From a virus: a stretch of DNA of 22,502 nucleotides. The translations under genes and the position numbers were made by a program. Below the pieces are notes generated by a model. The model was not told where the DNA came from, ran no database searches, and was given only the letters and a program-made list of their open reading frames with translations. Below, in pieces: positions 734 to 22,471 of the stretch (its first letter is position 1; every line of letters begins with the position of its first letter). Location of the stretch: the IMG/VR virus record IMGVR_UViG_3300037199_000247, positions 1-22,502 of that record. One strand, 5' to 3'.

Positions 734-768
734 AACCAAAAACCAACCCAACCCAAAGGAAATCGAAA

Positions 769-3721: not shown

Positions 3722-4087
3722 ATGTGGAGCAGAACCGTTGAGACCGCCGTAAAGCTTGGCTTTGCGGTTAACCGAGGCAGCGTGGACGGCAATGTCGTTC
3801 CCGCCGCCGACGGCACGAAACCGACGTTCCCTGTTTTCAGTGAACGCCCCGACGTGGGCACGATCATCGCCGCGGGCAACACGGTCGCCATTGTCACGGA
3901 CGACGGCGACCGGGAAATCTACGTGATCCTGGGCAACACGGTCACCGAATTCCAATTCGGCATGTCCGATTTGAATGGCGCCTGGATTCCCGCGACCACT
4001 GGCAATTACACGGGCGTGCAATTCCTGCAAAGTGGCGTCGCCGGCGACGTCGTGAAGGCCCGCGCCGCGCAATTCAAACTCCCGTAA
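3722..4087 (+). CDS. Small head protein, probable capsid decoration/cement
   Basis: This 121-aa protein has a strong ribosome site (GAGGAG, 3708-3713, eight bases before ATG 3722). It lies between the protease/scaffold and the major capsid gene, the usual slot for a capsid decoration protein (gpD-like or DUF2190-like). The sequence is beta-rich and glycine-rich without transmembrane segments, cysteines or catalytic motifs; VDGNVVPAADG, GTIIAAGNTVAIV and GNYTGVQFL suggest short strands and turns. I do not recognise a specific family, so the call rests on size, composition and position. Its leader carries a CCAAAAACCAAA motif also seen before two other genes here. An alternative is a head assembly factor unrelated to decoration. 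Confidence 0.55.
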   Translation: MWSRTVETAVKLGFAVNRGSVDGNVVPAADGTKPTFPVFSERPDVGTIIAAGNTVAIVTDDGDREIYVILGNTVTEFQFGMSDLNGAWIPATTGNYTGVQFLQSGVAGDVVKARAAQFKLP

Positions 4088-4111: not shown

Positions 4112-5131
4112 ATGGCATCCGAACCGCAACTCCTGACACTTAACGCGCAGCTCACGACGTTCGTCGCGGGCGTGCAACCGCCCGATTTGCTCGGACGCAT
4201 CATCGCGCCGACATCCCCGGCGCAATTGATCTCCGACGTGAAATTCAACTGGTGGAAATTTGACCCCGCCGAGTACCTGCGCCAGCAGGACACGAAGGTC
4301 AACCGCCGCGGCACCATTCCCGTGACGGATTTCGCTTTCACCACGGACTCCGATGTTCTCGCCGATCACGGCCAGCAGATCGTCAATCCCAACGACATCA
4401 GCTTGCTCAGCGAGGGCCAGCCGCCGCAGATTTTGCAGGCGCCGGTGAATGTCCGCATGGCAAAACTCAAGGCGTTGACCGAGACGTTCTGGTTCTCGCA
4501 CGAGTTTGAAGTGCGCGACCTCGTCTTCACTGCCGCCAATTACGCGTCGGCCAACACGCGCGTCGCCGCCACCACCGACATGCTCGACAATTCGGACAAC
4601 GAGCCGATCAAGATCATCCAGACGTTGATCGACACGCCGCTGATTCCACCGAACGCGTTGGTCATGGGACTCGCCGTCTGGCGTCCGCTGCAACGTCATC
4701 CGCAAATGGTCAGCGCGATCAAGGCCGTCCTCGGCACCCGCGCCGCCGTCAGCGGTCAGGTCAACCAGGATGAAGTCGCAGCGTTCTTCGGGCTGAAGCA
4801 GGTGCTCGTGGGCAAGCAGCGCACCAACAACGCGAACCCCGGTCAAACCGCCAGCTACCGTCGTATCTGGGGCAAGCACCTCGCTGCGATTCGCATCGAG
4901 GACGCGCCGCAGTCCACCGTCTCGCCGTACCCCGGCACCGCTCTCACGGCGTACGGAAACATTATGAACGCCGGCCCGATCTTCGTCGCCTCCCGCACGA
5001 TCCAGCCGGGCGAGGAAAACGGCGGCCTCTACGGCGCCGTCGCGGACATCATCGGTCACACCCGCAAGGTTCTTATGGTCAACCAGGATTCCTGTTACCT
5101 CCTGCAAAACTGCGTGACCAACGACGTCTGA
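4112..5131 (+). CDS. Major capsid protein
   Basis: This 339-aa protein is in the position of the major capsid protein, directly after protease/scaffold and decoration genes and before the gp36 connector. Sequence features agree with an HK97-fold shell protein: a long N-terminal region, a helical segment around residues 110-160, an NALVMGLAVWRPL strand-helix (about 186-198), and AAFFGLKQVLVGKQRTN followed by a tyrosine-rich segment, resembling the capsid element in which peptides such as FGLK-I-VG are common. There is no evident long delta domain, in keeping with a separate gpI scaffold. Start ATG 4112 has AAAGGA at 4097-4102. Fold assignment is inferred; the location makes the role likely. 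Confidence 0.8.
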   Translation: MASEPQLLTLNAQLTTFVAGVQPPDLLGRIIAPTSPAQLISDVKFNWWKFDPAEYLRQQDTKVNRRGTIPVTDFAFTTDSDVLADHGQQIVNPNDISLLSEGQPPQILQAPVNVRMAKLKALTETFWFSHEFEVRDLVFTAANYASANTRVAATTDMLDNSDNEPIKIIQTLIDTPLIPPNALVMGLAVWRPLQRHPQMVSAIKAVLGTRAAVSGQVNQDEVAAFFGLKQVLVGKQRTNNANPGQTASYRRIWGKHLAAIRIEDAPQSTVSPYPGTALTAYGNIMNAGPIFVASRTIQPGEENGGLYGAVADIIGHTRKVLMVNQDSCYLLQNCVTNDV

Positions 5132-5146: not shown

Positions 5147-5189
5147 CCTGACCCTCTCCCCTCCGGGGGAGAGGGTCAGGGTGCGGGGG
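5147..5189 (+). repeat. Palindromic GC-rich repeat, copy 1, carrying the next gene's ribosome site
   Basis: A perfect inverted repeat with 15-base arms (5147-5161 and 5166-5180) and loop TCCG fills most of the gap between the capsid and gp36 genes. Its central 25 bases (5152-5176) are identical to 7588-7612. Beyond the hairpin, a G-rich tail (GCGGGGGA, 5183-5190) is the only purine-rich ribosome site ahead of ATG 5200. There is no U-run, so an intrinsic terminator is unlikely; it may stabilise the upstream capsid message or trim readthrough. It resembles REP-like CCCTCTCCCC elements scattered through many bacterial genomes. Confidence 0.85.
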
Positions 5190-5199: not shown

Positions 5200-5676
5200 A
5201 TGACTATCATCAACGCCTTCCTGGCAGCCGACGACGTGACCGATAACTTCAGCCCCGCCCAGCTCATCGAGTTACTCGACGATCCTGTGAATCCCACCGG
5301 CGCGTTGAACACCACTCTCCGCGATAAAATCATCGCGCGCGTCAACGGCGAAGCCAGCAGCCTCGCCTCCGGTAAACTCCTCTTCCCGCTGCAGGTCGAC
5401 GACTCCGACGCCGACAACATCAAGGCCACCCTGGCGGGTTTCGCACTCGACATGTTCGAGTACTACGCGATGAAAGACAAACCGCACATCCTTCAAGCAT
5501 TCACCGGCGTGCAAGACGGCTACAACCGCGCCGTCGCCTGGCTCGAAGCCGTCCGCGACGGCAAAGCCACCATCGGCACGAGCAAAACCATTCCCGGCGC
5601 CGAAGCCCGCAATGCCGCCGTCGAAACCAGCGCGCACAAGGGCACCTTCGAACGCAAACGGATGAGAGGTTGGTAA
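5200..5676 (+). CDS. Mu gp36-like head-tail connector (DUF1320)
   Basis: This 158-aa protein fits the DUF1320 (Mu gp36) family, thought to form part of the head-tail connector below the portal. Family marks include an N-terminal helix-turn region, then LRDKIIARVNGEASSLASGKLLFPL, equivalent to the A-ASA-ID-YL--RY-LPL element, a middle helix LAGFALDMFEYY (I-A-Y-L), and YNRAVAWLEAVRDGKATIG, the typical Y--A--WL--I--G---L motif. The C-terminus GTFERKRMRGW resembles the family's closing R-F-R---G. It begins after a palindromic repeat whose G-rich tail acts as ribosome site, and is followed after three bases by the gpG-like gene. The assignment is good from motif order and neighbours. Confidence 0.82.
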   Translation: MTIINAFLAADDVTDNFSPAQLIELLDDPVNPTGALNTTLRDKIIARVNGEASSLASGKLLFPLQVDDSDADNIKATLAGFALDMFEYYAMKDKPHILQAFTGVQDGYNRAVAWLEAVRDGKATIGTSKTIPGAEARNAAVETSAHKGTFERKRMRGW

Positions 5677-5679: not shown

Positions 5680-6222
5680 ATGCCCTTCACCATTGAACAA
5701 CATGGCTTCGACGAACAAGGCCAACGCCTCCGCCTTATCGCCGGCGGAATCAACAACCTCGATCCACTCTTAAACGTGATCGCCTCCGACCTCGCGCAGA
5801 TGTGGCGCGACAACATTGACGCCGGCCCCAACGATCGCTGGCAAGCCGGTCCTTCGTATCGCGCGGAAACCTTCGGCGGCACCACACTGCACGACCGCGG
5901 CCTGATGCAGGCCTCGATCATCGGCCAGCAGACTGGCCCATCTGAAATCACCGTCGGCAGCCCGCTCACAGTCGGCAACGGCTGGAACCTGCTCGCCATC
6001 CACGAATTTGGCGCGGAGGTGTTAGCGAAGAACAAGGAATGGCTTACCTTCCGTTACCCGCTCGCCTCATCCACCGAACCCGGCTGGGCCCGCAAAAAAG
6101 AAATCACCATCCTGAGTCGCCCAACTGCTCCTTTCGATTGGGAGCGTGACGAACTAACCCCGGAAGCCGACCAACTCGTCCACTCGCGCATCAACAGTTA
6201 CCTCGCGGAGCTATGCCAATGA
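5680..6222 (+). CDS. Mu gpG-like virion morphogenesis protein
   Basis: This 180-aa protein fits the phage virion morphogenesis family (PF05069; Mu gpG, P2 gpS), which acts in head-tail joining or tail completion. The central pattern is visible: GGTTLHDRGLMQASI (the G--L--TG-L--SI element), ITVGSPLTVGNGW (strand with VG), AIHEFGAEV (H--G), then ILSRPTAPFDW in place of the family's IPARPFL and a C-terminal helix QLVHSRINSYL. Start ATG 5680 lies three bases after the gp36 stop with GAGAGG at 5664-5669. Its stop overlaps the gp37-like start by ATGA at 6219. The order gp36, gpG, gp37 matches Mu and B3-like phages. Confidence 0.8.
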   Translation: MPFTIEQHGFDEQGQRLRLIAGGINNLDPLLNVIASDLAQMWRDNIDAGPNDRWQAGPSYRAETFGGTTLHDRGLMQASIIGQQTGPSEITVGSPLTVGNGWNLLAIHEFGAEVLAKNKEWLTFRYPLASSTEPGWARKKEITILSRPTAPFDWERDELTPEADQLVHSRINSYLAELCQ

Positions 6223-6752
6223 GCAATTACCTCATCGATATTGAGGATTCCGTCATCATCAAGGTCAACTCCGCCACGCGTCCTGACGATAACACGCGCA
6301 ATTTCTTTAATCGCGTCGACATCTTCCGCGGTGAGAAAGCCGACGTCTTTCTCGCCGTCGCCCGCGAGACCGCCCCGTCGGCTTGGCTGCGTCTCGATCG
6401 CATCCTCAACAAGCCCGAGGAATTCAAAAGTGCACGCAATCTCGGCCAACCCGTCCTGCAAGGCACGTTACGCAACGAGATCGCCTGTGTCTGGTCACTG
6501 TTCCTCTGCGCCCGCTCGTTGCGCGCCACCAAGGAACTTTCCCACGGCGGTCCCGGGGTCATCGGTGCCTACGACATGATCAACCTCGTCGTCGGCCCAT
6601 CTGCTTCGCCGCCCGCGACCCCGGGTCGGTTGCGGGGCTGGCCGCCCATCGCGCAAGCGGAACCATTTGTTTTTGTCGGCCTGGAACTGCTCGGCCAGAC
6701 GACGACTGAGACCGTGTATGAAGCTCAGTTTCGAACCCGAGTGCAACTGTGA
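6219..6752 (+). CDS. Mu gp37-like tail terminator/completion protein (DUF1834)
   Basis: This 177-aa protein fits DUF1834 (Mu gp37), a presumed tail terminator or completion protein. It has an N-terminal I--SVI-KV helix, a conserved region LQGTLRNEIACVWSLFLCARSLRA, then GPGVIGAYDMINLVVG, equivalent to the family's GIY-LI--V---L-G, and a late strand FVFVGLELLGQTTTETVYEAQF. I choose ATG 6219 because it overlaps the upstream stop as ATGA and has GGAG at 6207-6210 at eight bases; ATG 6213, two codons earlier, is also possible. It is the last gene of the Mu-type head and connector block. Function comes from family and order; motifs are moderate. Confidence 0.7.
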   Translation: MSNYLIDIEDSVIIKVNSATRPDDNTRNFFNRVDIFRGEKADVFLAVARETAPSAWLRLDRILNKPEEFKSARNLGQPVLQGTLRNEIACVWSLFLCARSLRATKELSHGGPGVIGAYDMINLVVGPSASPPATPGRLRGWPPIAQAEPFVFVGLELLGQTTTETVYEAQFRTRVQL

Positions 6753-6792: not shown

Positions 6793-7578
6793 ATGAGTAA
6801 CTTGGCCATCCGCAATCGGCTGACCGTCGGCAATGTCTGGCAGGGCGGCGCGGTCGCGTTGTTCGACCGCGATTATGCCGGCGTCCTGATCGACCTGGGT
6901 AACGTCACCGATTCAAGCTTTAACCAGGAATTGGAAGCGACCGATTTCCGCACCGCCCGATCCACAGGCACGCTCGTCACCGAAGCCCGTCCGATCAAGC
7001 GCCTCGAACTACCCATCACCATTAAGTGCAACGCGCCGGATCCGCAAGCGCTCGACCTCGTGCTCTTCGGCGACGGCCAGGCCGCCTTCAGCCAGGCCTC
7101 GGCGACCGCCTCTACCCAGAACATCACCGTCGCCGCGCTCGATCTGTGGCACAAGATCGCGGGCTTCGAAATCGCCAACGTCGTCGTCAAAAAAGCCAGC
7201 ACCACCGCCGTGCTCGGCACCGATTACGATCTCGACACGGAACTCGGCGCGGTCAAGCCGCTCACCGGCGGCATGTTCTCCGTTAGCGACACCATGGCCC
7301 TTACCTTTGACCTGACCGCCATCACCAAGGTCGAAAACCGTCTCCAAACCCACATCGGTTTCGTCTACGGCGAGTTCTACCTCTACATGGTCCTCCCGCC
7401 GAACGAAGGCCGCACCGCCGAACAAGTCTGGCTCCGCCACATGGCCAAGTCCCGTTTGGAACCAACCGGCAACTTCGACTTCAGCCCTGATAAACCGGCC
7501 GAGCAATCATTCAAAATCACACCCGTCCCCAGCGGTGACGCCACGTATCCCTTCGGTTACCTGCGCCAAATCAAATAG
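6793..7578 (+). CDS. Major tail tube protein
   Basis: This 261-aa protein is in the tail tube position: after the connector set, before the tail assembly chaperones and tape measure. It reads as a beta-rich tube subunit, with an N-terminal AVALFDRDYAGVLIDLGNV strand pair, LELPITIKCNAPDPQALDLVLFGDG in the middle, a GTDYDLDTELGAV segment (residues about 140-152), and a C-terminal FDFSPDKPAEQSFKITPVPSG, a common ending in siphovirus tube proteins. No sheath gene precedes it, so the tail is non-contractile. It has the best ribosome site of the window (GGAGG, 6780-6784, eight bases from ATG), suited to an abundant protein. The leader contains the CCAAAAACC motif. Confidence 0.82.
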   Translation: MSNLAIRNRLTVGNVWQGGAVALFDRDYAGVLIDLGNVTDSSFNQELEATDFRTARSTGTLVTEARPIKRLELPITIKCNAPDPQALDLVLFGDGQAAFSQASATASTQNITVAALDLWHKIAGFEIANVVVKKASTTAVLGTDYDLDTELGAVKPLTGGMFSVSDTMALTFDLTAITKVENRLQTHIGFVYGEFYLYMVLPPNEGRTAEQVWLRHMAKSRLEPTGNFDFSPDKPAEQSFKITPVPSGDATYPFGYLRQIK

Positions 7579-7629: not shown

Positions 7630-8010
7630 ATGACCGATACCGCCAAACCGATACTCCGCGAATCGCTCGAAGTCGTCTACGACGACGAACGCCGCGAGAC
7701 CATCATCGTCAAGCGCCTCTCAAACACCGACATGATCAAATGGGCCGACACCGGTCTCGACAAGGCCTTTCTCGTTTTCCGCTCCGTCGAGCGCTCGGAG
7801 ATTTCCAATCTCCGATCTCAAATCGGGCAGCAGTGGTTTGACTCGCTCACCCAGGACAGCGCCTTCGCCGTCATTGAGAAAGCGCTGGCGCTAAACCATT
7901 CACCGATTCAAAAAAAAATGCTGGAGGCCGTCCTGGTAAACCTGCGGTCGTGGTTGTTAACGATGCCCTCGACTTCCTCCGCGCCCGCGGCCACGACACC
8001 GACAAACTGA
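7630..8010 (+). CDS. Tail assembly chaperone (gpG role), upstream frame
   Basis: This 126-aa product is the zero-frame reading of a two-part tail assembly chaperone gene lying between tail tube and tape measure, the place of lambda G/GT. These chaperones coat the tape measure before the tube polymerises. The sequence is acidic and helical, starting with a beta pair (LEVVYDDERRETIIVKRLS). Near codon 94 the frame crosses nine consecutive A residues (7910-7918), a classic slippery site that can send ribosomes into the -1 frame. The zero-frame tail after the slip is low-complexity (TSSAPAATTPTN), as expected for a readthrough end. Residues SEISNLRSQIG (about 57-67) are encoded by an AT-rich palindromic repeat. 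The product name follows from order and frameshift; sequence similarity to a known gpG is not evident. Confidence 0.72.
   Translation: MTDTAKPILRESLEVVYDDERRETIIVKRLSNTDMIKWADTGLDKAFLVFRSVERSEISNLRSQIGQQWFDSLTQDSAFAVIEKALALNHSPIQKKMLEAVLVNLRSWLLTMPSTSSAPAATTPTN
7797..7827 (+). repeat. Palindromic short repeat inside the chaperone gene
   Basis: GGAGATT (7797-7803) pairs with AATCTCC (7807-7813), and CCGAT (7812-7816) with ATCGG (7822-7826), giving two overlapping hairpins over 31 bases. The text resembles the AATCTGAGATTTCAAATC type of host interspersed repeats and encodes SEISNLRSQIG in frame. The insertion reading is an inference. Confidence 0.5.
7910..7918 (+). promoter_or_regulatory. Slippery A9 run, probable -1 ribosomal frameshift site
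   Basis: Nine A residues contain the heptamer A-AAA-AAA in the phase required for a -1 slip (zero-frame codons CAA AAA AAA ATG start at 7909). After slipping, decoding continues as AAT GCT GGA into the frame that stays open to 8234. The G-rich stretch just downstream (GCTGGAGGCCGTCCTGG) could form a stimulatory structure. Position between tail tube and tape measure is where tailed phages conserve such frameshifts. Confidence 0.85.
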
Positions 8011-8234
8011 CCGACTATGAAATCGAAGAAACTTTCACGGCAGCGTTCAAAAACTGGCAGCACGACATGGCTGAGCGCGCGTTCTATACCGGCGTTGTGT
8101 GGGTCGAGAAACCGCGTGAATGGCGCAAGTACATCGACAACCTCCACCAGGCGATCGAAGGAAACTCACAACGCGCCGTCGCCGAGGAACTTCTCTCCAA
8201 CTTCCTCGCCCAGGGCGTTCCCGTCGCGAATTGA
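7917..8234 (+). CDS. Tail assembly chaperone, T part of a G-T frameshift fusion
   Basis: This is the -1 frame segment entered from the slippery site; with the upstream 96 residues it makes a fusion of about 201 aa (7630-8234), comparable in design to lambda gpGT. The T part is rich in charged and aromatic residues (YEIEETFTAAFKNWQHDMAERAFYTGVVWVEKPREW) and should contact the tape measure, encoded 18 bases downstream. A GTG at 7950 could give an independent 94-aa protein, but it has no good ribosome site, and the frame stays open back past the A run, so the fusion is the better reading. The zero-frame product ends at 8010, well inside this segment, so both frames are used over about 90 bases. 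Confidence 0.74.
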   Translation, partial: NAGGRPGKPAVVVVNDALDFLRARGHDTDKLTDYEIEETFTAAFKNWQHDMAERAFYTGVVWVEKPREWRKYIDNLHQAIEGNSQRAVAEELLSNFLAQGVPVAN

Positions 8235-8252: not shown

Positions 8253-9323
8253 ATGGCTGACAATAACATTGCCGAAATCATCCTGAAAGTTACGACCGAA
8301 GGTCAGGGCAACGCCCAGATTCTTGGGGCTCAATTGACCCAACTCGATCAGGCGACCAACAAGGTGATGACCACTACCTTGGCCGCCACGACCGCGCAAA
8401 AATCGTTCAATGCGGAAATAGGCAAGGCATCGCCCGCGCCGGGTCTTGCGGTGGCGCAATTGCAACAGCCCAACTCGCAATTGGAAAGAATGTTGCAAAA
8501 CTGGGGCAATCTACAAAAGCAGGTGGATGGTTTCACCGCGCACACACTCCGCGACTTCACGTCCACATCCGCACACGCGTTGACGCAATGGATCGAGGGC
8601 TCGAAGAACGCGAAAGAGGCCTTCGCCGGTTTTGTCACGTCCGTCCTCGAAGGCATCCTCCAGATAATGCTCCAGCAGACGATTGCCCACGCGATCGGCC
8701 TGACGCAGGCACAGGTCTCCGCGCAAACACAAACCGTTGCGAATACAGAAATTGCCGCCAGTGCCGCGCCTGCCGCCGCCCTCACCGGTGCCGCGACCTT
8801 CGGGGCGAACTCCGTCGGCGTGGCGCTGGTAATTGCCGCCGTACTGGGCGGCGTCGGCGCCTTGCTGGCCCTGACGCGCCGGGCGGAAGGCGGTCCGGTA
8901 TTTGGTGCCGGCAGCGAGACGAGCGATTCGATTCCCGCGTGGCTTTCTCACAATGAATTCGTGCAACCCGCTGCCGCTCACAACTACTACGGCACCGACG
9001 TCATGGAAGCCATGCGGACGCGTTCAATCCCGCGTGAAGCGATCCGCGCCTCGATGGAGCACCGCACGTTCGCCTACGGCGGACCCGTCCTGCCCACACG
9101 CGCCTTTGCGGAGGGTGGTATCGCCGTGCGGATGGCCGGTGGTGGCGTTGTACCGAATGTCAGCGTCGGCGGCGCGAATGTCCTGATGGCGTTTGGTCCC
9201 GCCGAGATTGACCGTCTGATGGCCACCAGCGAAATGCAGAAGCACCTGACGGATCATCTCGACAGGAACTCGCATCGCATTGCACGAAACGTCAAACGCA
9301 CGGGAGGGCATAGGCAGGAATGA
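8253..9323 (+). CDS. Tape measure protein, unusually short
   Basis: This 356-aa protein has the usual tape measure layout in miniature: an N-terminal helical part rich in Gln, Ala and Thr; AFAGFVTSVLEGILQIMLQQTIAHA (about 123-147) as seen near the end of many tape measures; a hydrophobic segment (186-208); and a glycine-rich C-terminal motif AEGGPVFGAGSETSDSIPAW followed by LSHNEFVQPAAAHNYYG, the family's G-G--TSDSIPA-LS-GEFV element. Tape measure length sets tail length; lambda gpH is 853 aa. At roughly 1.5 angstrom per residue, the whole chain would span only about 50 nm. ATG 8253 has AAGAGG at 8239-8244. The stop overlaps the next start (ATGA, 9320). The identity is well supported; tail length is inferred. 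Confidence 0.85.
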   Translation: MADNNIAEIILKVTTEGQGNAQILGAQLTQLDQATNKVMTTTLAATTAQKSFNAEIGKASPAPGLAVAQLQQPNSQLERMLQNWGNLQKQVDGFTAHTLRDFTSTSAHALTQWIEGSKNAKEAFAGFVTSVLEGILQIMLQQTIAHAIGLTQAQVSAQTQTVANTEIAASAAPAAALTGAATFGANSVGVALVIAAVLGGVGALLALTRRAEGGPVFGAGSETSDSIPAWLSHNEFVQPAAAHNYYGTDVMEAMRTRSIPREAIRASMEHRTFAYGGPVLPTRAFAEGGIAVRMAGGGVVPNVSVGGANVLMAFGPAEIDRLMATSEMQKHLTDHLDRNSHRIARNVKRTGGHRQE

Positions 9324-10582
9324 TTCCTAACCTTGTCATCTTCCCGTTCCGAGCAAATTGGTCCTCGCCGATCACCCTGAAGTCCGCTTTCGCCACGAAC
9401 ATCAAGTGCGAGTCGATCCCCGGCAGCATCACCCGCGACAGCGCCCGCGATTACGGCCAGCGCTCCATCAAGTTTAATATTCTGCCCTACGACAATGTGC
9501 GTTGGACCTGGGACGCTTACCGTGAGGTGAACCCACCGGGCACGATTCTCGGTATTCCCTTGTGGTGCGAGGAGGGGATCTACCTGACGACGGACGCCGC
9601 GATCGGCGCGACGACCCTCTCTGTGTCCGCGGTAAACTTCATCGACTGGCGTAGTGAAGGTGTCTTGTGGAAGTTCGACGACTCGGCCTGCGAGGGCCTG
9701 CAGATTCAAAGTATCAGCGGGACCACCATCGCGCTTTCTTCCGCGCTTCAATCCGCCTTCAAGGCCGGTGACCAGGTCTTGCCGTTGGTGCGTGGGTTCC
9801 AGATTGAAGACTACGCGGAGGACGCGCAAAGCCCGGAGATAGCGGAACTCGTGTTGACGTTCGTGGAAGATTTGGCGGCATTGGCTTCGCCAGCGATTCA
9901 GGGCGCCATCGATGAGGTAACCTATCTCGGCCTGCCCGTGCTGCCGCTGACCACCGAATGGAGCGAACCGCCCAAGACCAGCATCGGCCAGGGAACGCAC
10001 ATTGTTTCGCAGGGCCTCAATCGCCAGGCATTCGGCACGCTGCAGCAATACCTCCGCCAGCGCATCTCACATCGCATCGGTTGCGACGGACGACAGGACC
10101 GCGCGACGATCTGGCAATTCTTTCACGACCGCCGCGGGCGCTGGGACCGCTTCTGGTTGCCATCGTTCAAGGACGAATTGAAACTTTCCGCTGACATCGG
10201 CGCGAGCGACGGGTTCCTGACGCTGGCGAATTTCACGGCGTTCAGTTCCCGCTTTAATCTTGGCGGCGACCTGCGCCGCGCCATCTTCATCGTGAGCGGT
10301 AATCAATGGTGGATCCGCCAGGTCACGAACCTGTCCGGCGGCGGCGCAAACAGGGTGAGCCTCGATGCGTCCATCGGGACCGCGCTCTCCGCTTCCGTCA
10401 CTCTCATCGGCCTGCTGTCGCTCGTGCAATTTGCGACCGACGACATCGAGATCGAGTGCCAATCGCCGCTGGTGGCCACTGCGACCCTTACGTTCACCGA
10501 ACTGGAACGCGAATACGCCGACGTCATCAGCAGCGGAATCGCGAGCGGCATGATCGCGGGAATGGAGTTGACTGCGTCATGA
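9320..10582 (+). CDS. Distal tail/tail-tip protein (D3112-like, FWLP motif)
   Basis: This 420-aa protein follows the tape measure with an ATGA overlap. It resembles distal tail components of D3112/B3-type siphophages and, more loosely, the DUF2460 proteins of gene transfer agents. An N-terminal region FATNIKCESIPGSITRDSARDYGQR corresponds to the EQR-ALR-PR type motif. Residues about 260-285 contain IWQFFHDRRGRWDRFWLPSF, the F---R-GR---FWLPSW signature, followed by the D--L (DELKLSADI) stretch. A terminal strand, FATDDIEIECQSPLVATATLTFTELE, also fits. The GATTLSVSA segment (about 93-101) looks like a small inserted beta domain. The role is presumably to close the tube and dock the hub. The family is recognised from motif and order, not a named symbol. 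Confidence 0.72.
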   Translation: MIPNLVIFPFRANWSSPITLKSAFATNIKCESIPGSITRDSARDYGQRSIKFNILPYDNVRWTWDAYREVNPPGTILGIPLWCEEGIYLTTDAAIGATTLSVSAVNFIDWRSEGVLWKFDDSACEGLQIQSISGTTIALSSALQSAFKAGDQVLPLVRGFQIEDYAEDAQSPEIAELVLTFVEDLAALASPAIQGAIDEVTYLGLPVLPLTTEWSEPPKTSIGQGTHIVSQGLNRQAFGTLQQYLRQRISHRIGCDGRQDRATIWQFFHDRRGRWDRFWLPSFKDELKLSADIGASDGFLTLANFTAFSSRFNLGGDLRRAIFIVSGNQWWIRQVTNLSGGGANRVSLDASIGTALSASVTLIGLLSLVQFATDDIEIECQSPLVATATLTFTELEREYADVISSGIASGMIAGMELTAS

Positions 10583-12072
10583 GAACTGTCCCCTCAGCTT
10601 GGAGCGCACTCGAGACCGCACGCGAGCGACAGGTTGCTCTGCTGATCCACATCTTCGCAAGGCGTGATGGCCGTGTCTCACTACCGGCTGGTTGGGGATC
10701 ATGGACGTACTCAATCGGATTTCAGGCCAACGTCAACTTCACCGACCTGGCGAATTACGCTAGCGACGGTATCCAATCGCGCACCTACGTGCCGGCCGCG
10801 ATTGAGTTCGATGCGAACCAGGTGTTTCGCAAGGAAAGCACCGATCTCGATCCGCACGACCTCACGCTCACGGTCGATCCCTCGCTCGACCCATTCCTCA
10901 ATTACGTCAACCACCAGTGGCCGCTCACGTTCGGCATCGTGATCTACAAGGTGCACCGCAACGGCAACGCCATCATCACAGTGGACAATGGCACTGGCAC
11001 GCAAGTGCCGGTCGCGGACGTCGCGTTCATCGGCTATCTCGACAGCGACGACGCGTTGGACACCAACAGCGCGGGTTTGGAACAAACCATCGATGGCGGC
11101 AAGTTGAAGCTGACCACGAAGTGGGACCACATCACCAAGAAATTCGTGCGTGAGATCCCGCGTCCTGTTTTTAGCATCGACTGCCCAAAGGCACTCTTCT
11201 CGTCATCGAGCACGGCGGTGGTCGATTGCAACGCCGATCCGCAATACGTCCGTATCGACGGCTTTGTCTTGCAAGTCAACGGCGTACTCGTCAGCGCATC
11301 GGAATGGTACGCGCAGCCGCCGGGCTGGTTTGCGCAGGGCATGATCCAATACTCGGCGACCGACCCAATCAGCGGTCTGGTGTTCGGGTTCACGCTCGGT
11401 GTCACCGCCAGCGCGCAGCGCACCGACCTCGGCGTGAACTATGGCGACCTGACACTGGAAATGTTTCCGCCGCTGCCAATCACAGGCCTGGTTGTCACCG
11501 CGTTCGGCGGGTGCGACCGCCTGCGTTCAACCTGCATCGGCAAGCACATTCCCGTGGGCACCGTCCCGCCCGCGCCCGGCACGCCGACGCCCGGCCACAT
11601 CGATGTGGCGCTGCAACTCTTCAACAGCGTTAGTAGCAACGCCAAGACAGCACGCGTAATCATAACACCCACGCTATTGACGATTCAATACAGCGGCACC
11701 GACAGCACACAGATCGGCAACTTCGCCGTCAATGGCGTGGACTGGACAACCACCTCGATGATGGCGCTCGGGTCGAGCGCGCTGGTCACGAGCCCGGGCT
11801 TTACGCTGACAGCCGGTGGCACGGGACCGCCGAACTCTTCCGGGTACAATTTCACGCTCGCCAACAACGGCGCAGGGACGCCGAGCATCGACCAGAAGTC
11901 AACCGCCGCGAATGGCTTCACCACCATCATCAAGATGAAAGGCCAGGCGGCGTACGATTTCCGCGTAAGTTGGACACCGACCAATGGCTCGCCCATCAAT
12001 TTCGGCAACCTGCAGAACTTCGGCGGCACCGACATCCCCATCGAACACCCATCATTGGAGACGACGAAGTGA
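10579..12072 (+). CDS. Tail hub protein, DUF2163/BR0599 family
   Basis: This 497-aa protein starts at ATG 10579, overlapping the previous stop (ATGA); a longer open frame upstream is a shadow of the previous gene. The N-terminal half fits DUF2163: a strand series around 75-150, and REIPRPVFSIDC (C202) followed by a second cysteine (C217), the family's R-IPR--Y---C...C. The BR0599 element is clear at GCDRLRSTCIGKH (C312, C319), equivalent to GCD-T--TC--KF-N. In gene transfer agents and related phages this protein, with an iron-sulfur or metal-binding cysteine cluster, forms the hub joining tube and tip. About 150 C-terminal residues beyond BR0599 are an added beta-rich domain of unknown role, possibly a carbohydrate-binding or Ig-like appendage. 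Confidence 0.78.
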   Translation: MRTVPSAWSALETARERQVALLIHIFARRDGRVSLPAGWGSWTYSIGFQANVNFTDLANYASDGIQSRTYVPAAIEFDANQVFRKESTDLDPHDLTLTVDPSLDPFLNYVNHQWPLTFGIVIYKVHRNGNAIITVDNGTGTQVPVADVAFIGYLDSDDALDTNSAGLEQTIDGGKLKLTTKWDHITKKFVREIPRPVFSIDCPKALFSSSSTAVVDCNADPQYVRIDGFVLQVNGVLVSASEWYAQPPGWFAQGMIQYSATDPISGLVFGFTLGVTASAQRTDLGVNYGDLTLEMFPPLPITGLVVTAFGGCDRLRSTCIGKHIPVGTVPPAPGTPTPGHIDVALQLFNSVSSNAKTARVIITPTLLTIQYSGTDSTQIGNFAVNGVDWTTTSMMALGSSALVTSPGFTLTAGGTGPPNSSGYNFTLANNGAGTPSIDQKSTAANGFTTIIKMKGQAAYDFRVSWTPTNGSPINFGNLQNFGGTDIPIEHPSLETTK

Positions 12073-12683
12073 GCACCCATCTCCCATACTTCCATACTGC
12101 CGATCGCGTTCAGATGTTGCTCAATCAACTTCATTTATGGAGCGGCACGCGCTGGCGGCACGCGGGCGCGCGGCCGAATGAGATGCGCTGCGGTGTGAGC
12201 GGCGACTGCTTGTTTTGGGTGCACGTGTTCAAGGCCATCGGCGCATTGCCGACCAGGTTGGAGATCCCTAACTACCGCCGCAAGGAGGCGCTCGCCGACG
12301 AAATGCAGACATTGCGGGGTTGCATCGAGGCGACGAATTGCACCGATCTGGTATTCGATGAAGCGCACACGAAACAGCTGCCAGTCTTCCGCGTCGGCGA
12401 CGTGCTGCTGTTCAGGAACGGCACTAGCGGTGCTCACTGCGGCCTCGTGGTCAGGGAAGCGCCGGTGCACTTCACCCATCTCACCGGCAACGGCCTGCTC
12501 GAAGAGCCACTCCGCCAGGCGCACTACCTCGCGGCTTTGGCGTTCGTTTACAGACTGCTTGAAGCCCCACAAAACCAGGTCAGCGAGACCCACGAAGCAA
12601 ATCCGAAAACCGAATTCCGAAACTCAATTGACTTTCGGATTTCGAGATTCGTGCTTCGAGTTTCTCCCAGGAGGGAGTCATGA
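12069..12683 (+). CDS. NlpC/P60-like tail peptidase
   Basis: This 204-aa protein starts at GTG 12069, overlapping the previous stop (GTGA), with GGAG at 12057-12060. It fits the NlpC/P60 cysteine peptidases found in phage tail tips, which cut peptidoglycan peptides during DNA entry. The nucleophile is probably C47 in GVSGDCLFW, the catalytic histidine H123 in GAHCGLVV, with a strand VGDVLLFRNG before it, the usual spacing for the fold. The family's commoner DCSGF is altered to GDCLFW, so activity is not certain. The last 35 residues (ETHEANPKTEFRNSIDFRIS) are not domain sequence: they are encoded by a host-type repeat at 12599-12668 that extended the frame. Neighbours (DUF2163 hub upstream, large tip protein downstream) match gene transfer agents. 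Confidence 0.8.
   Translation: MSTHLPYFHTADRVQMLLNQLHLWSGTRWRHAGARPNEMRCGVSGDCLFWVHVFKAIGALPTRLEIPNYRRKEALADEMQTLRGCIEATNCTDLVFDEAHTKQLPVFRVGDVLLFRNGTSGAHCGLVVREAPVHFTHLTGNGLLEEPLRQAHYLAALAFVYRLLEAPQNQVSETHEANPKTEFRNSIDFRISRFVLRVSPRRES
12599..12668 (+). repeat. Host-type palindromic repeat forming the peptidase C-terminus
   Basis: A perfect ten-base inverted repeat, AAATCCGAAA (12599-12608) and TTTCGGATTT (12633-12642), is followed by CGAGATTCGTGCTTCGAG. This wording is the familiar interspersed repeat of planctomycete and verrucomicrobial genomes (from memory). It is AT-rich against GC-rich flanks. It is translated as EANPKTEFRNSIDFRISRFVLR and ends just before the AGGAGG of the next gene. 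Confidence 0.75.
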
Positions 12684-15595
12684 GTTTCCTCGGCGGCGCC
12701 AACGCAGCAATGAGCGCAAACCGGCGCGTGGTCGCGCAGTCGCCCGTCGCTTCCAACATCCTCGGCACGCCGTGGCCGACGTTGTGGGGATTGCGCGGGC
12801 TGAACGGAACGGTCATCGCGTGGACGAACCACACATTCAACAGCGGCGGGGCATCAGGCAAGGGCGGTGGCCAGGTGTCAAGCGGCGAGAAAGACTACCG
12901 CACGTTCGCGCTCGGCCTGTGCATCGGACCGGTGGATCGCCTTACAGAAATCTGGTACGACAACGAGCTGATCTGGCAGGGGAACATCAGCATCGCCTCG
13001 GCGGCGACCACAGCATCGGCCACGGTCGGCATCGGCGGCGTGGTGCTCACGGACAACCTGCAGCGCGGCACGATCACGTTTTATTTCGGCCTCGATACGC
13101 AGACGCAAGACCCGGTCCTCGCCAAATTCATTCCCGACGCGCCGTTCTACCGTGGCATGTGCTACGCGGTGTTCCACGGGCCGCGCACCGGCACGAAAGG
13201 CTTTCGTCTGGGCAATGCCGACACGCTTGCGCAGATCGCACTCTATGTGGAACGAATCCCGGCTTCATTGCCGGGCATGGAGTTTACACTCCAGACGCAA
13301 AGCGCTCCGCAGAACGGTGGAATCGTGAACAGCAGTGTGATTTTCGCTGCCGACGATTCGGCATTCACCGGCACGGGCAGCATCATCTACGTGCTCAATG
13401 TACAGGGCGCCAGTAGCAGCTCAACAGCATTGGTCACCGTCAGTAATCTCGACGGATCGGACACCGCGACAGGCTCGTTCCTGATCACCAGCGGTACGAC
13501 GTTCGCCGTGGGCAGTTTCGGGTTGAAGGCCACGCTCACGTGGACCGGGGGCGCGCTGGTCCCTTCGGCGGACACAGCGCAATGGTCGATTCTGCTAACC
13601 AGTAACATGGACGTACCGGGCGGCGCGAACGTAGCCGGCATGCTGTACGAGCTTTTAACGAGCAGCGTTCACGGCATCGCGCTCGACCTCGCCGTGATCG
13701 ATTCCGCCGCGTTCAATACCGCGGCGCTGGCGTTGCTGCAGACGGGCCTCTCACACCTGGTCAAGGACAAGGGCGACGCGCGCACACTCATCGAGGACAT
13801 CCTCAAGAACGTCCAGGGCGCCCTCACCATCAACAATGGGCTGCTCGGCTTGCGTCTGCTCAGCGGCGGCAATTCGGTGCTCACACTGCAAGCCGATGAC
13901 GTCGTTGCCCTCAAACAGCGGCCCGGTTCCTGGTACGAAGTGCCACAGCGATGCCTCGTCAAATACAACGACATCAACCGTAAGTTCCACGACACGATTC
14001 TGCCGCTACCGGGTGCGGGGGATTTTGGAAACGACGAGAAGACGCTTCAGATCGATCTGCCAATGGTCACCAACGCGGACGTGGCGCGACTGATCGGCAC
14101 GCGGTTGCGCATGCTGGAAACGCTGCCGAAGAATCCTGACACCATCACCTGCGGCCGCGGTGCGTTCCAACTCCAGTTTGGCGACGTGTGCGTCATCAAC
14201 GATCCGCCCCGCGGCTACAGCTCAACCATTCCCTTGATCGTCATCGCCATCCGCGAGCACGGCATGGGCGACGAACTGATCGAGATCGATGTCGTGCCGA
14301 ATATCTTTGGCTTTCTGCCGGCAATTCCGCTCTCGGTCGGAGGAGGTGGCGGTGGTGGTGGCGGCGGGAGCAGTCCAATCGAGCCGATCCAGTTGCAGGA
14401 TGTCGTCGAGTTGCCGTGGGACTTCGCGCAGGACGGCTCAAAGCAGTTCACCCTCTTCGCCGCGCGTCCGCAAGCCGACGTGGAAGGCATGGCACTCTAC
14501 GCGTCCACCGAGAATCCTCCCGTTGACTATGACCTCGTTGATTCCGACGCACCATTCCACGCGGGCGGGACGGTTGTCGATTCCAGCTTCTCGCCGTTCA
14601 CGATGGACCGCGCCGCGTACATCGACTTCAAGCAGGGCAGCGACGACATCGACGGGTTCTCGTCACTCTCGGATACGGACTGGTTTGCCTACAAGATGCT
14701 GGTACTGATCGGCAGCGGGATCAATGCCGGGCTTTACGCCGCCTGCCAGTTGGTTTATCTCGGCGGCACAAGCTGGCGCATCCTGGGGATATTCGGGCCG
14801 CTGTCCGACACGCCCATACCGTCACCGAGTCCGGGCGATCCGCTGTGGGTGTTCCGCATTCAGCCGCTGTATACCGTCCCCGGCGAACCAGCATGGGTCA
14901 TCAATTCGTTGCTGTCGTTCAAGGCCATCCCGTTCGGCAGCCGAATCTCTCCGAGTTTGGGCGATGCCCTGCTCGCGCAGCTCACGATCCTGTCGCGCGC
15001 GCAACGGCCGTTCCCGGCCGATAACCTGATCGCCAACGGGCGCAGCGCATCGATGACGCCGCTTTACAATGGCGATATCAATCTCGCGTGGATCCTGCGC
15101 GACCGCGGATTCGGGTTCGGTTACGAAACGAACCCAAGTGAGTTCGACCCTTCAATCCCCAGCGAAGTGGACACCTGCGACGTGGAGATTTGGGTCGGCG
15201 GCACGCTGAAGCGGACGACAACAGTGAGCGTGCGCCACGACACAGTGCAAACGTCCACGCTGGCCGTAGCGACGGCCCAACAGTTCACGGTCGGCAGTGT
15301 CGCCGGCCTGCAACCGGGCGACCGCATCAGCCTCGTCGACGGCGGCATCGAGTATTTCGGTCGCATCCAATCGATCAGCGGCCTGACGATCACGCTCTTC
15401 TCACCGCTGCCGATAGTGCCCGTGGCCGACGAACTGGTGACCCGCTACGAATCAGTCGGCTACATCTATGACGCTGCGACCAACGCCAGTGACAATGGCG
15501 GCACTCCCGCCGCGTCGGTGGATGTGAAAGTGTACGCGAACCTCAACGGCCTGCGCGCCCTGCGCCCGGCAGAACTCACGGTGATAAAACAATGA
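12680..15595 (+). CDS. Large tail-tip (host specificity/central tail hub) protein
   Basis: This 971-aa protein begins at ATG 12680 (ATGA overlap; AGGAGG at 12669-12674). It occupies the place of lambda gpJ, GTA 'megatron' and D3112 tip proteins. The first 190 residues, with GTPWPTLWGLRGLNGT, LCIGPVDRLTEIWYDNELIW and FYRGMCYAVFHGPRTG, follow the usual pattern of tip proteins (IG-I--I--I--D-----G). Residues about 365-545 resemble the phage tail 3 domain, with TINNGLLGLRLL and a late FGDVCVINDPP. A run of ten glycines (about 555-564) forms a flexible linker to a C-terminal half of beta-sandwich repeats, likely fibronectin-like spacers leading to fibre attachment. No TIM-barrel lysin is evident. 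The exact family is uncertain; the role is well supported by order and size. Confidence 0.78.
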   Translation: MSFLGGANAAMSANRRVVAQSPVASNILGTPWPTLWGLRGLNGTVIAWTNHTFNSGGASGKGGGQVSSGEKDYRTFALGLCIGPVDRLTEIWYDNELIWQGNISIASAATTASATVGIGGVVLTDNLQRGTITFYFGLDTQTQDPVLAKFIPDAPFYRGMCYAVFHGPRTGTKGFRLGNADTLAQIALYVERIPASLPGMEFTLQTQSAPQNGGIVNSSVIFAADDSAFTGTGSIIYVLNVQGASSSSTALVTVSNLDGSDTATGSFLITSGTTFAVGSFGLKATLTWTGGALVPSADTAQWSILLTSNMDVPGGANVAGMLYELLTSSVHGIALDLAVIDSAAFNTAALALLQTGLSHLVKDKGDARTLIEDILKNVQGALTINNGLLGLRLLSGGNSVLTLQADDVVALKQRPGSWYEVPQRCLVKYNDINRKFHDTILPLPGAGDFGNDEKTLQIDLPMVTNADVARLIGTRLRMLETLPKNPDTITCGRGAFQLQFGDVCVINDPPRGYSSTIPLIVIAIREHGMGDELIEIDVVPNIFGFLPAIPLSVGGGGGGGGGGSSPIEPIQLQDVVELPWDFAQDGSKQFTLFAARPQADVEGMALYASTENPPVDYDLVDSDAPFHAGGTVVDSSFSPFTMDRAAYIDFKQGSDDIDGFSSLSDTDWFAYKMLVLIGSGINAGLYAACQLVYLGGTSWRILGIFGPLSDTPIPSPSPGDPLWVFRIQPLYTVPGEPAWVINSLLSFKAIPFGSRISPSLGDALLAQLTILSRAQRPFPADNLIANGRSASMTPLYNGDINLAWILRDRGFGFGYETNPSEFDPSIPSEVDTCDVEIWVGGTLKRTTTVSVRHDTVQTSTLAVATAQQFTVGSVAGLQPGDRISLVDGGIEYFGRIQSISGLTITLFSPLPIVPVADELVTRYESVGYIYDAATNASDNGGTPAASVDVKVYANLNGLRALRPAELTVIKQ

Positions 15596-15635: not shown

Positions 15636-16097
15636 ATGAGCGTACTAGCAAACGGGACGGAAGATTTGCCATTTGGCCTCACACCGGCTGCAGCCTACGC
15701 CATCATCAACACCGCAATTCAGAAAATCGCGCAGATGAACCTGCTCGACAAGGACGTTCCGTTCTTCGGGCTGGTGCGCGACGGCCAGGTACGCGGTACG
15801 TCGCAGATCGCCATCGAACGACTCATCACCGCCGTTGAAATCCGCACCGAAAGCGCCGCGCCTGTGGGCAGTGCACTACTGATCCAGCTTGTGGTCGGCG
15901 GTACGCTGCAATCGCAACAATATTCCCTCGCCGCCGGCAGTACCTACACACTTGTAAGCGTCACCGGGGACGGCAACGGCGGCGCCGGCTCTGGCCTCGT
16001 CGTCCCCGTCAACACCACACTCGCCGTCCAGATCATCAACAGCAACCAGGCCGCCGATGTGGTTGTTACGCCCAAAACCCAATTGAGGATTCTATGA
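15636..16097 (+). CDS. Small beta-rich tail-associated protein (fibre base?)
   Basis: This 153-aa protein lies between the tip protein and the fibre. An N-terminal amphipathic part (TPAAAYAIINTAIQKIAQMN) precedes a beta-sandwich region (ITAVEIRTESAAPVGSALLI, TLQSQQYSLAAGSTYTLVSV, NTTLAVQIINS) resembling the small domain that often caps phage baseplate or fibre-attachment proteins (a strand, nucleus and AG-T--TL pattern). No signal peptide is present, in contrast to the following genes. Its stop overlaps the fibre start (ATGA, 16094). I do not recognise a named family; a fibre anchor or accessory receptor-binding protein is the best guess from position. Confidence 0.6.
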   Translation: MSVLANGTEDLPFGLTPAAAYAIINTAIQKIAQMNLLDKDVPFFGLVRDGQVRGTSQIAIERLITAVEIRTESAAPVGSALLIQLVVGGTLQSQQYSLAAGSTYTLVSVTGDGNGGAGSGLVVPVNTTLAVQIINSNQAADVVVTPKTQLRIL

Positions 16098-17779
16098 AAC
16101 GAATTTTGATCCTGCTTTTAGCGATCACGATGTTTGCGTTCTCTTCACGCGCCGGCAATGTCTACCCCTTCCGCCTCAGCAATGGCACCGCGACCGGCGA
16201 AGTGGACGAAGTGTTTTTCAGCGCCAGCGACATCACGCTTTCGATCACCAACATTCCCGGTGCCGGCAAGCGCGCCATCATCGGCATCATCGGCGGCGGC
16301 GGTGGCGGCGGATCGAACAACACGATCCTCGTTGCCGGCAACGGCCTTGACTTCACCGATCTCGGCGGTGGCACGAACTCGCTCGCCATCGATCCCTCGA
16401 TTGTGGCGACGAATCCGGTCAGCGGTAGCGGCGGCGGTCTCACCAACGTCCTCGACAGCGCGGGCGGCACGTATTCCTTGGTCGGCCACACCAACCAGCC
16501 GACACTGCTGATCAAAGGCTTGACCAACGAAAGCCCGGTCACGCTCACGATCACAGATCGCGGCACGATGCTCGGTTTCCTGGTCGCCACGCAAGGCGGC
16601 TTCGGCCAGACCAACGCGTGGACCACCAACGGCCTGCCGTGGGCCGTGTCAGACACATTCGGTTTCTCCAACGCTTCGTCCGTCGTCGGTCTGGCGTTCA
16701 CCAATCTCGGCGGCGTGCCGACGATCCACCTCGTGCCCGACAGCACCATCGCACGCACCGGACAATCCCAGACGTGGAGCGCCCCGCAGACCTTCAACAG
16801 CAGTGCGACGTTGACACTCGGCGCGCCGACCTGGTTCAAGAGCAGCGTGACTATCAGCGACAACGTCACCATCGTTTCCAATGCCACCGTTGGCGGAAGC
16901 CTGACGGTAGGCACCGACGCGATGATCAGCGGCAACGTGAATGCCGGCAGCTTCACCGGTTCCATGAACGGCGGCAACATCACCGGCAACCAGAGCGTCG
17001 GGACAAATACGCTCACCGCATTCGGCAGCAACACCGGCACCATCGGCAGCGCAGGGCAATTCCTCGTCGTGCACCTGAACTCCGCGGGCATTCCCGATGG
17101 CTGGAGCACGGCCACCGGCAGCAGCCTCGCCACATCGACAAATTCCATCAGTGCCGTGCAACTAAACGGCTCATGGAACAATGGCGTCATCGGGCTAACC
17201 ATCAGCAATATGAGCGTGGCCACCATCAACGGCACCACGGTCACAGTCGGTTTCGCATCCGCCCCGTTTGAGAACATTACCGTGCTCAATGGCGCGACCA
17301 ACTACACCCTGCACGGCTCAAGCCTGACAATTTCAAATCTGCTATCGGGATTCGGCGTGGTGGTCACCAATCGCGGTGGCGGTCAGATTGACATTGGGGG
17401 CACAGTGACGATGCTCTCGAATAGCGCGAGCTCTTTCTTGAGTGTTAGCGGCACAGCATCAAGTCCAACTGTCACAGTGGAAACCGCGGCCTCGACCATT
17501 ATTCCGGTCGTCACGACCCGAACGCTGCGGGTTATAAATTTGGTTTCAATGCAACCGCCAACGGAGTCAACCCAACTGCCCAACTCGTCATCCAAGATGG
17601 CGCTAACCAGCAGTACTTGTACTTTACCCGTGACGGCCCAAAGAGCGGAGAGCAGTTCATCTCTTTCAACGACAGCACCGGCGGAAACGTATCGTTTGGC
17701 CAAGAGCCGACCGGTAATGCGAGTGGTGACAAACGCGACATTAACATCTCGTCGAGCGTTTCTGTCGGTGGGCTCATAG
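16094..17779 (+). CDS. Tail fibre with Sec signal peptide, N-terminal part of a frameshifted gene
   Basis: The gene starts at ATG 16094 (GAGGAT, 16085-16090; ATGA overlap). Residues 1-21 (MKRILILLLAITMFAFSSRAG) form a clear Sec signal peptide, odd for a virion protein. Then come a glycine run (about 66-72), GSGGGLTNVLDS, and long Thr/Ser/Asn/Gly-rich stretches with short repeats (SGNVNAGSFTGSMNGGNITG; TGTIGSAGQFLVV), as in trimeric tail fibres. Fibre-like sequence runs to about residue 474 (STIIPVVTT, near 17515). After that this frame gives basic, serine-rich nonsense until the stop at 17779, while the -1 frame reads smoothly (NAAGYKFGFNATANG). A single missing base near 17518-17523 would explain it. 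Whether this is mutation, assembly error or a real switch is open. Confidence 0.72.
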   Translation: MKRILILLLAITMFAFSSRAGNVYPFRLSNGTATGEVDEVFFSASDITLSITNIPGAGKRAIIGIIGGGGGGGSNNTILVAGNGLDFTDLGGGTNSLAIDPSIVATNPVSGSGGGLTNVLDSAGGTYSLVGHTNQPTLLIKGLTNESPVTLTITDRGTMLGFLVATQGGFGQTNAWTTNGLPWAVSDTFGFSNASSVVGLAFTNLGGVPTIHLVPDSTIARTGQSQTWSAPQTFNSSATLTLGAPTWFKSSVTISDNVTIVSNATVGGSLTVGTDAMISGNVNAGSFTGSMNGGNITGNQSVGTNTLTAFGSNTGTIGSAGQFLVVHLNSAGIPDGWSTATGSSLATSTNSISAVQLNGSWNNGVIGLTISNMSVATINGTTVTVGFASAPFENITVLNGATNYTLHGSSLTISNLLSGFGVVVTNRGGGQIDIGGTVTMLSNSASSFLSVSGTASSPTVTVETAASTIIPVVTTRTLRVINLVSMQPPTESTQLPNSSSKMALTSSTCTLPVTAQRAESSSSLSTTAPAETYRLAKSRPVMRVVTNATLTSRRAFLSVGS

Positions 17780-18570
17780 TAGCTAATCAGGACAATAACG
17801 GGACCGGCCTAGGCGGCTACCAATTCTACGAGAACGACCCGCAATTTCCCCGGATACTGTTCACGAACGACAAGCAAGCCATCAATACCAATACTGCTTG
17901 GGTCCATGAGACGTACGCGAGTTTCGGAAACTGGACGAATTCTGGCAAAGCTGCAACGCTCACGGGAGGCGGTCTAATTGTTATTGGCTCAAACGAATAC
18001 TGGCTGGCGGTTGGCCGGGCGGTTGGCTCAGTGACCGGCGCCAAGGCCAAAGAATATCCCACGAACAGCTTTTCAGGTTTCTTCTTCTCGCCAGTATCAT
18101 CGGCACAGAGCAATAAATCTTTCCTGGCTGTGCGGGACGCCTCAAATGGCTTGTGGCTGATAGGCGTCGGTTCCAATGGCGCTCACGGCGTTTTTCAGAC
18201 GAACGATTTCTCGACGCCGGTAGCTTTACAATTTATCACCAACCTTCTTACGGCGGTCACTGACACTTACACCAATTCAGGGCGCGGCGAGATTTCCGTC
18301 ACGGTGAATTTTACCTCGGTGCTCGGGAACTCTGCTGTCAGTTGGATGTTTGAGTTCTCTACCAATTCGACTGGCACGATAGCGACCAACACAATCGACT
18401 ATGTTTCGGAGCCGGCAATAGCCCTGACAGAAACCAAGGTGATGCGAGGCGTGATGGACGCGGGCTACGCACTCTGCATCTCCAACCTATCATCCGGCGG
18501 AGCCACTCTCACGATCGGCACCGAGTCCGGCGCGCCTGCCAACGCGCCAAACCGCATCACGTTCTATTGA
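17521..18570 (+). CDS. Tail fibre, C-terminal part (after the frameshift)
   Basis: The frame is open from 17449 but becomes fibre-like only from about 17521, giving roughly 349 residues that continue the upstream fibre. No ATG or GTG with a ribosome site lies near the start, and a TTG at 17617 is unconvincing, so this is best read as the second half of one protein of about 825 aa. It contains QLVIQDGANQQYLYFTRDG, WVHETYASFGNWTNSGKAAT, several aromatic-rich strands, and an ending SNLSSGGATLTIGTESGAP, consistent with a receptor-binding tip. Codon use is visibly more AT-tolerant (GTA, ATA, CTA, TCT codons) than in the N-terminal part, suggesting a different origin. The receptor cannot be guessed. 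Confidence 0.65.
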   Translation, partial: NAAGYKFGFNATANGVNPTAQLVIQDGANQQYLYFTRDGPKSGEQFISFNDSTGGNVSFGQEPTGNASGDKRDINISSSVSVGGLIVANQDNNGTGLGGYQFYENDPQFPRILFTNDKQAINTNTAWVHETYASFGNWTNSGKAATLTGGGLIVIGSNEYWLAVGRAVGSVTGAKAKEYPTNSFSGFFFSPVSSAQSNKSFLAVRDASNGLWLIGVGSNGAHGVFQTNDFSTPVALQFITNLLTAVTDTYTNSGRGEISVTVNFTSVLGNSAVSWMFEFSTNSTGTIATNTIDYVSEPAIALTETKVMRGVMDAGYALCISNLSSGGATLTIGTESGAPANAPNRITFY

Positions 18571-18608: not shown

Positions 18609-18848
18609 ATGCACGCATTCATCGCCGTAGTCCTCATCCTCAGTGGGTGTATCAACTGCCCGCCCGCCGGCACCGTTATCACCAACACGGTCACGCTAAC
18701 CATCGGCACCAACGTCTTAGCCAGTGCCGCTATGTCGAATGGTGTCCTGGTGGTCACTGCTACGGTACCAAGCAATCAGGTCACCGCCGTCAGCGCAGCT
18801 ATCGGCACGAACTCCACGTCGAGCCAAGTTATCCTTACCACGCCATGA
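18609..18848 (+). CDS. Small lipoprotein
   Basis: The 79-aa product starts best at ATG 18609, nine bases after AAAGGA (18594-18599); ATG 18591 would include that site within the gene. The N-terminus is MHAFIAVVLILSGCINC, a hydrophobic stretch ending in the lipobox LSGC with cysteine at residue 14, so a lipid-anchored protein is likely. The short mature part is threonine-rich (NTVTLTIGTNVLASAAMSNG; SNQVTAVSAAIG) and resembles fibre-like beta strands more than an Rz1-type spanin, which would be proline-rich. Its stop overlaps the spike start (ATGA, 18845), implying coupled translation. It could be a fibre accessory, a superinfection-exclusion lipoprotein, or a spanin-like factor; nothing in the sequence decides. 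Confidence 0.65.
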   Translation: MHAFIAVVLILSGCINCPPAGTVITNTVTLTIGTNVLASAAMSNGVLVVTATVPSNQVTAVSAAIGTNSTSSQVILTTP

Positions 18849-22436: not shown

Positions 22437-22471
22437 CGCGACTTAGTTCACCGAGGAGGAAGAGGATTTTG

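Follow-up and report, generated by a model that had tools for sequence, protein, structure and literature searches.

Here we describe a cluster of phage-type genes that takes up most of a 22,502-nt stretch of DNA held as a virus record (IMG/VR record IMGVR_UViG_3300037199_000247, positions 1–22,502; hereafter, the window). On balance, and with modest confidence, we favor reading it as a gene transfer agent (GTA)-like particle cluster that derives from a Mu-like phage and is chromosomally fixed and under selection in an uncultured Verrucomicrobia lineage. Phage-like particles would then probably be produced by bacteria of this lineage for their own purposes, as with GTAs, and there is about an even chance that the cluster represents a GTA that evolved independently in the Verrucomicrobiota from a transposable siphophage of the Mu/JBD30 type. 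The established parts of this account are the anatomy of the cluster, its common locus, the lack of mobility genes nearby, the purifying selection on its genes, and the in-frame insertion of host repeats. Candidate GTAs are usually recognized in sequence by structural and packaging genes that stay at one locus and are maintained by selection. The window begins inside the large terminase gene and ends in host DNA, with its portal, head, tail, and spike genes forming one uninterrupted same-strand series; it is the greater part of a whole particle cluster of approximately 23–27 kb that contains packaging, head, tail, and spike genes only.

A terminase scan of bacterial genomes recovered the whole cluster, at 73–93% DNA identity to the window, in the Verrucomicrobia metagenome-assembled genome (MAG) isolate palsa_1439 (G001; contig PLZV01000057.1, 336 kb), where it is followed on the right by an orthologue of the window's last gene, the class II ribonucleotide reductase gene nrdJ, and an apparent glutaminyl-tRNA synthetase gene (flanking genes without a Pfam call were named from their translations). 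In a second genome of the same family (G027), the cluster lies between an FHA-domain gene on the left and the host secreted-protein gene and nrdJ on the right, as in G001. Both flanks are common to these two genomes only; the window shares the right flank, across the host gene and on into the upstream region of nrdJ. This host gene (21216–22211, minus strand) begins 8 bp beyond the last cluster gene, and its orthologue is chromosomal and stands at the same place in both genomes, in agreement with a preliminary description of the window, which had noted a host-like gene abutting the cluster and had proposed comparing the locus across relatives. Five further members of the family (G019, G020, G021, G023, and G026) lack the cluster at this position and have an apparent GTPase gene, der, ahead of nrdJ; in G026, whose nrdJ is the closest of the five, the FHA gene adjoins a clpB-like gene. 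Because der precedes nrdJ in these five genomes, the cluster/nrdJ junction would be a derived state common to the window's host, G001, and G027, and a single insertion inherited by descent accounts for it best. A fixed locus inherited with the host is accordingly seen in three lineages only, and the insertion at varied sites that marks Mu-like phages was not seen in G001, G027, or the window's right flank, the left side of one clade member (L002) being different. Clade members L002, L003, L069, and L070 end before the right flank.

No recognizable integration or replication enzymes are encoded beside the cluster, as is expected of a GTA. Between the FHA gene and the right-hand host gene, G001 and G027 carry phage packaging and structural genes together with a few of host type, namely a HYR-domain protein gene in G001 and genes for a methyltransferase and a small protein in G027. 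The rve domain was found in neither genome; tyrosine integrases occur in both, but none lies in G001 C5 1–60000 or on G027 contig C24. (The Mu transposase family PF02914 matched nothing, controls included, and the searches relied on PF00665, PF00589, and the transposase protein of a phage.) That protein, the Mu-type transposase of transposable phage record G013, has relatives in seven of the nine phage records with related terminases (G013 itself counted), but as a query it found no relative in G001–G005, G019, or G027. The linked transposase and early region of a complete Mu-like phage are thus missing at the cluster, and the finding that the preliminary description had named as fatal to its proposal, a complete transposable phage with its ends around the cluster, was not made. 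The mobility genes could still lie out of sight, either because the phage has a divided genome with its replication and integration genes elsewhere, or because an unrecognized enzyme integrates at this site. The tyrosine integrases elsewhere in G001 and G027 would suit such an arrangement, as would the origin of several clade contigs in a viral-sequence collection. We regard it as very improbable, given that neither genome has a mobility gene in the vicinity of the cluster, that IMG/VR assigns contigs to viruses according to gene content and L002 ends in a host-like gene, and that repeated site-specific infection would not make the synonymous divergence (dS) of the head genes match that of the flanks.

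The ratio of nonsynonymous to synonymous divergence (dN/dS), a check also proposed at the outset, was compared across the window, G001, and G027, and fell between 0 and 0.37 for every tested gene except the open reading frame (ORF) at 8017–8247, which is not a real frame. All 21 cluster genes examined have unbroken frames in both G001 and G027, where approximately 160–320 stop codons would be expected in the absence of selection at such divergence. The cluster genes are held by purifying selection, as the genes of a GTA are. Between G001 and G027, the dS of the head genes (0.32–0.58) is similar to the 0.42 of the flanking nrdJ, and the cluster has therefore been present since these hosts split. 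These values bear directly on the possibility that the cluster is just a defective Mu-like prophage of the ordinary sort, whose early region was lost recently and which has yet to decay. Such a prophage would be expected to keep the gene order and tip of ordinary phages, to have transposable phages as its terminase relatives, and to be narrowly distributed, all of which hold here. It is nevertheless unlikely, since the junction is common to two genomes and the window despite a dS of approximately 0.3–1, no frame is broken where so many stops are expected, dN/dS is far below 1, and the head-gene dS matches that of host DNA that has been beside the cluster since the hosts split.

The host repeats mentioned in the preliminary description are present and extend into coding sequence. 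In G001, host-repeat insertions have given the terminase gene two additional segments, approximately 72 and 150 nt long, without disturbing the reading frame; parts of the larger insert match 43 places in G001 and 23 in G027, and the terminase genes of L002, L003, and L004 have similar in-frame inserts. In-frame repeats combined with selection are what long chromosomal residence under selection should look like. Across species, in-frame host-repeat inserts occupy the same terminase linkers (L044 15774–18056; L002 4551–7082; L003 1713–4367; L004 1497–4775), and a tandem duplication around the Walker A motif of the terminase ATPase is common to L002 and L003. The ATPase motifs of the terminase are kept, and its full-length relatives give weak GpA_ATPase and GpA_nuclease matches. 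As for a small terminase, a gp27-like protein resembles phrog_426 and Phage_Mu_Gp27 only weakly, over its C-terminal portion; known GTAs have a small terminase without a recognizable DNA-binding domain (PMC11841831).

The preliminary description centered on five tail-tip genes at 8253–15595, which are indeed long, overlapping, same-strand ORFs. Profile matches confirmed the families that it had named, in the order short tape measure, distal protein, DUF2163/BR0599 hub, NlpC/P60 peptidase, and large tip, as well as the Mu-like nature of the head, seen in the portal, the Gp36-type adaptor, and the capsid (Table 1). It had also taken the joining of a GTA/D3112-like tip to a Mu-like head as a sign of domestication. 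However, the portal and distal tail protein are homologous by profile to the JBD30 portal (8rka) and baseplate (8rk3) entries; the B3/D3112/JBD30 type covers head and tip alike, and such phages normally combine a Mu-like head with this tip. We rejected a novel fusion of the tip to a foreign head, the same combination being found in JBD30, and because that combination is ordinary in B3/D3112/JBD30 phages, gene order is not itself evidence for domestication. The proposal of domestication nevertheless survives, on the grounds of locus, missing mobility genes, and selection. A tailocin (a headless tail) was likewise rejected, as portal, capsid, and terminase are all present and under selection. 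The tip protein (12680–15595) matches the megatron protein only weakly (8gtc_M, E 0.007).

The interval from the major tail gene to the tape-measure gene contains a slippery A AAA AAA run along with a 107-aa −1 T frame, both conserved in the clade members examined; a tail-chaperone −1 frameshift is the usual arrangement at this place. The mechanically called ORF 8017–8247 was dropped as probably not a gene, the conserved frame being the −1 T frame. The tape measure has 356 residues in the window, compared to 1158 in JBD30 and 999 in a divergent relative from G019, and by the rule of approximately 0.15 nm of tail per tape-measure residue, the predicted tail is approximately 50 nm long. Structure predictions for the product of 2591–3688 (predicted local distance difference test score, pLDDT, 45) and for that of the first cluster gene (pLDDT 35) were of low confidence and were not used.

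Table 1. Features of the window, with the evidence for each assignment and identities to the G001 and G027 counterparts
Feature	Position	Strand	Evidence and remarks
Large terminase, C-terminal part (nuclease domain end)	2..733	+	Start left of window; 95–96% identical to G001/G027 terminase ends
Small protein, signal-like N terminus, clade-conserved	730..1164	+	Identity 93% G001, 86% G027
Mu-like portal protein	1192..2589	+	Portal_Mu 8e-56; JBD30 portal 8rka 5e-34 (profile)
Probable head maturation protease/scaffold, Mu gpI position	2591..3688	+	Weak phrog_3894 (E 0.013), gene order, alignment
Short host-type repeat inside protease/scaffold gene	2650–2685		
Small capsid-associated protein, probably decoration	3722..4087	+	97% identical in G001 and G027; role from position before capsid gene
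Major capsid protein	4112..5131	+	phrog_1005 9e-42; 97.6% identical in G001 and G027; dN/dS 0.02–0.05
Host-type palindromic repeat, intergenic	5147..5181; second copy 7584–7617	.	Self match 94%; same repeat type in G001 (C5 25609–25653 and elsewhere)
Mu gp36-like head-tail adaptor	5200..5676	+	Phage_Mu_Gp36 5e-12
Tail completion/neck protein	5680..6222	+	phrog_26 5e-5
Connector or tail terminator-type protein	6213..6752	+	Position; kept in all clade members
Major tail protein	6793..7578	+	phrog_807 6e-13
Tail assembly chaperones: G 7630–8010, T frame to 8234 via −1 frameshift	7630..8234	+	A AAA AAA run 7911–7917
Short tape measure protein, 356 aa	8253..9323	+	Several tape-measure PHROGs; Pfam Tape_meas_lam_C just below cut-off
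Distal tail protein	9320..10582	+	phrog_1082 6e-49; JBD30 baseplate entry 8rk3 4e-25
Upper baseplate/hub protein (BR0599 type)	10579..12072	+	phrog_778 1e-7; 8vjh_D 1e-5
NlpC/P60-type tail peptidase	12069..12683 (about)	+	Profile match MepS/Spr; GDC and GAHCG motifs retained; 3' end consists of host-repeat sequence
Large tail tip/baseplate hub protein	12680..15595	+	phrog_1101 2e-51; Phage-tail_3; 8vjh_A 8e-10
Small conserved protein after tip	15636..16097	+	82–84% identical in G001 and G027
Tail fibre proteins, two frames (16094–17779 and 17617–18570)	16094..18570	+	Parts 62–82% identical to one 851-aa G001 ORF
Tailspike-like protein, probably beta-helical	18845..21208	+	67% identical to G001 spike; G001 spike weakly matches pectate-lyase-like PF12708
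Host gene, secreted protein, right flank of cluster	21216..22211	-	82% (G001) and 67% (G027) identical to same-place gene
Host DNA upstream of nrdJ	22330..22502	.	81% identical to G001 C5 ~41517–41690

In the terminase tree, the window clade forms a tight group among records of Mu-like transposable phages, and searches of phage records gave distant portal and tip matches only. One of the transposable phage records (G013; L078+L079, 39.4 kb) carries a transposase (phrog_310), a Gam homologue, and a DnaA C-domain protein, and its lineage has terminase relatives in Verrucomicrobiota and Kiritimatiellota genomes. Two further clusters were not counted as support. Contig C26 of G002 (L048+L047) is a mosaic, with window-like head genes, a terminase that groups with those of other phages, and many in-frame repeats; apparent lipoate ligase, triosephosphate isomerase, and secG genes lie on its right side, and its left side is the contig end. 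The 16-kb contig C166 of G019 (L061), a divergent relative from the same family, has the 999-aa tape measure mentioned above and is probably a phage with a long tail.

The receptor-binding, or spike, end differs between cluster members: no match to the window's last spike (18845–21208) was found in G027. The G001 tailspike (L045 16988–20000) contains an additional segment, several hundred residues long, with no counterpart in the window spike; it looks glycosidase-like by eye, and Pfam gave no match for it. At the opposite end of the cluster, the product of the first gene (L044 13639–14451; L053 11753–12559; L002 1710–2651) has two hydrophobic stretches close to its N terminus, and its C-terminal domain is conserved and ends in F; it had no match in the databases and is a possible lysis protein.

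Several observations weigh against a fixed, GTA-like cluster. The tail genes of G001 and G027 differ by a dS of 0.6–0.95, above that of nrdJ, and the window's tape-measure allele (8253–9323; L045 6276–7355; L054 4263–5333) is 93% identical to that of G027 and 72% to that of G001, unlike the head genes; because of this excess and this disagreement, recombination within the tail genes of the cluster is suggested. One clade member, L002, has a different host-like left neighbor, and all hosts are MAGs. Neither an endolysin nor a regulator was recognized for the cluster. Strong capsid matches were obtained in four of 384 Verrucomicrobiia genomes, two of the four being other phage lineages, and because of this the domestication is confined to a small clade. 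Lastly, a killer particle like PBSX, made by a domesticated cluster that packages host DNA and kills competing relatives with no gene transfer, would have the same packaging, head, tail, and spike genes at a fixed locus under purifying selection, and its sequence would look identical. This is the main rival, and the variable receptor-binding end would fit its target specificity, but we consider it rather unlikely: spike variation is just as expected for adhesion, no immunity gene was recognized beside the cluster, and selection on the terminase, portal, and capsid is stronger than killing alone would seem to require.

Under the favored GTA-like reading, a single insertion of a Mu/B3-like transposable siphophage would have occurred in a common ancestor. 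The phage would have lost mobility along with its early region, while selection preserved the packaging, head, tail, and spike genes at that one site. Mu-like phages package DNA by the headful mode. Host signals would switch the cluster on, and the GpA-type terminase, untied from a phage genome, could package chromosomal DNA in this manner. Particles with a short tail (approximately 50 nm) and polysaccharide-binding or -cutting spikes may then exit by lysis and deliver chromosomal DNA to kin, in the fashion of GTAs.

GTAs have been demonstrated experimentally in few lineages, namely alphaproteobacteria (RcGTA and BaGTA), Brachyspira, Desulfovibrio, and Methanococcus (PMC11841831), and the open literature searched, which leaves out most subscription papers, reports none in the Verrucomicrobiota and none descended from a phage of this type. 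If the proposal is correct, a different phage type has been domesticated in a widespread soil and peat phylum, making the GTA route a general one and fitting the suggestion that phages with headful packaging turn more readily to host DNA (PMC7947584). The cluster can be compared with related transposable phages that retain their early region, and it serves as a warning that viral-sequence collections contain host-encoded particle clusters labeled as viruses.

Compared to GTAs of the RcGTA type, the cluster shares chromosomal fixation and selection of its structural and packaging genes, a short tape measure, the order tape measure, distal tail protein, hub, peptidase, and tip, and the placement of lysis genes outside the cluster (the RcGTA holin and endolysin genes lie elsewhere; PMC6209664). 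Unlike RcGTA, it has a Mu/JBD30-like head, portal, and terminase and a weak match to the GTA-type megatron, and it belongs to another phylum. With B3, D3112, and JBD30 (Casadabanvirus-like), it has in common a homologous portal and distal tail protein and a Mu-like capsid and adaptor, but it differs from them in its fixed locus, its tape measure of less than a third the JBD30 length, and the absence of a transposase or early region. The same absence sets the window clade apart from the Mu-like transposable records to which its terminases are related, most of which have a transposase and one of which, G013, has the Gam homologue. Finally, PBSX of Bacillus subtilis, which packages host DNA (PMC12946183), is likewise chromosomally fixed and has kept its structural and packaging genes; the window cluster is of another phage type and phylum.

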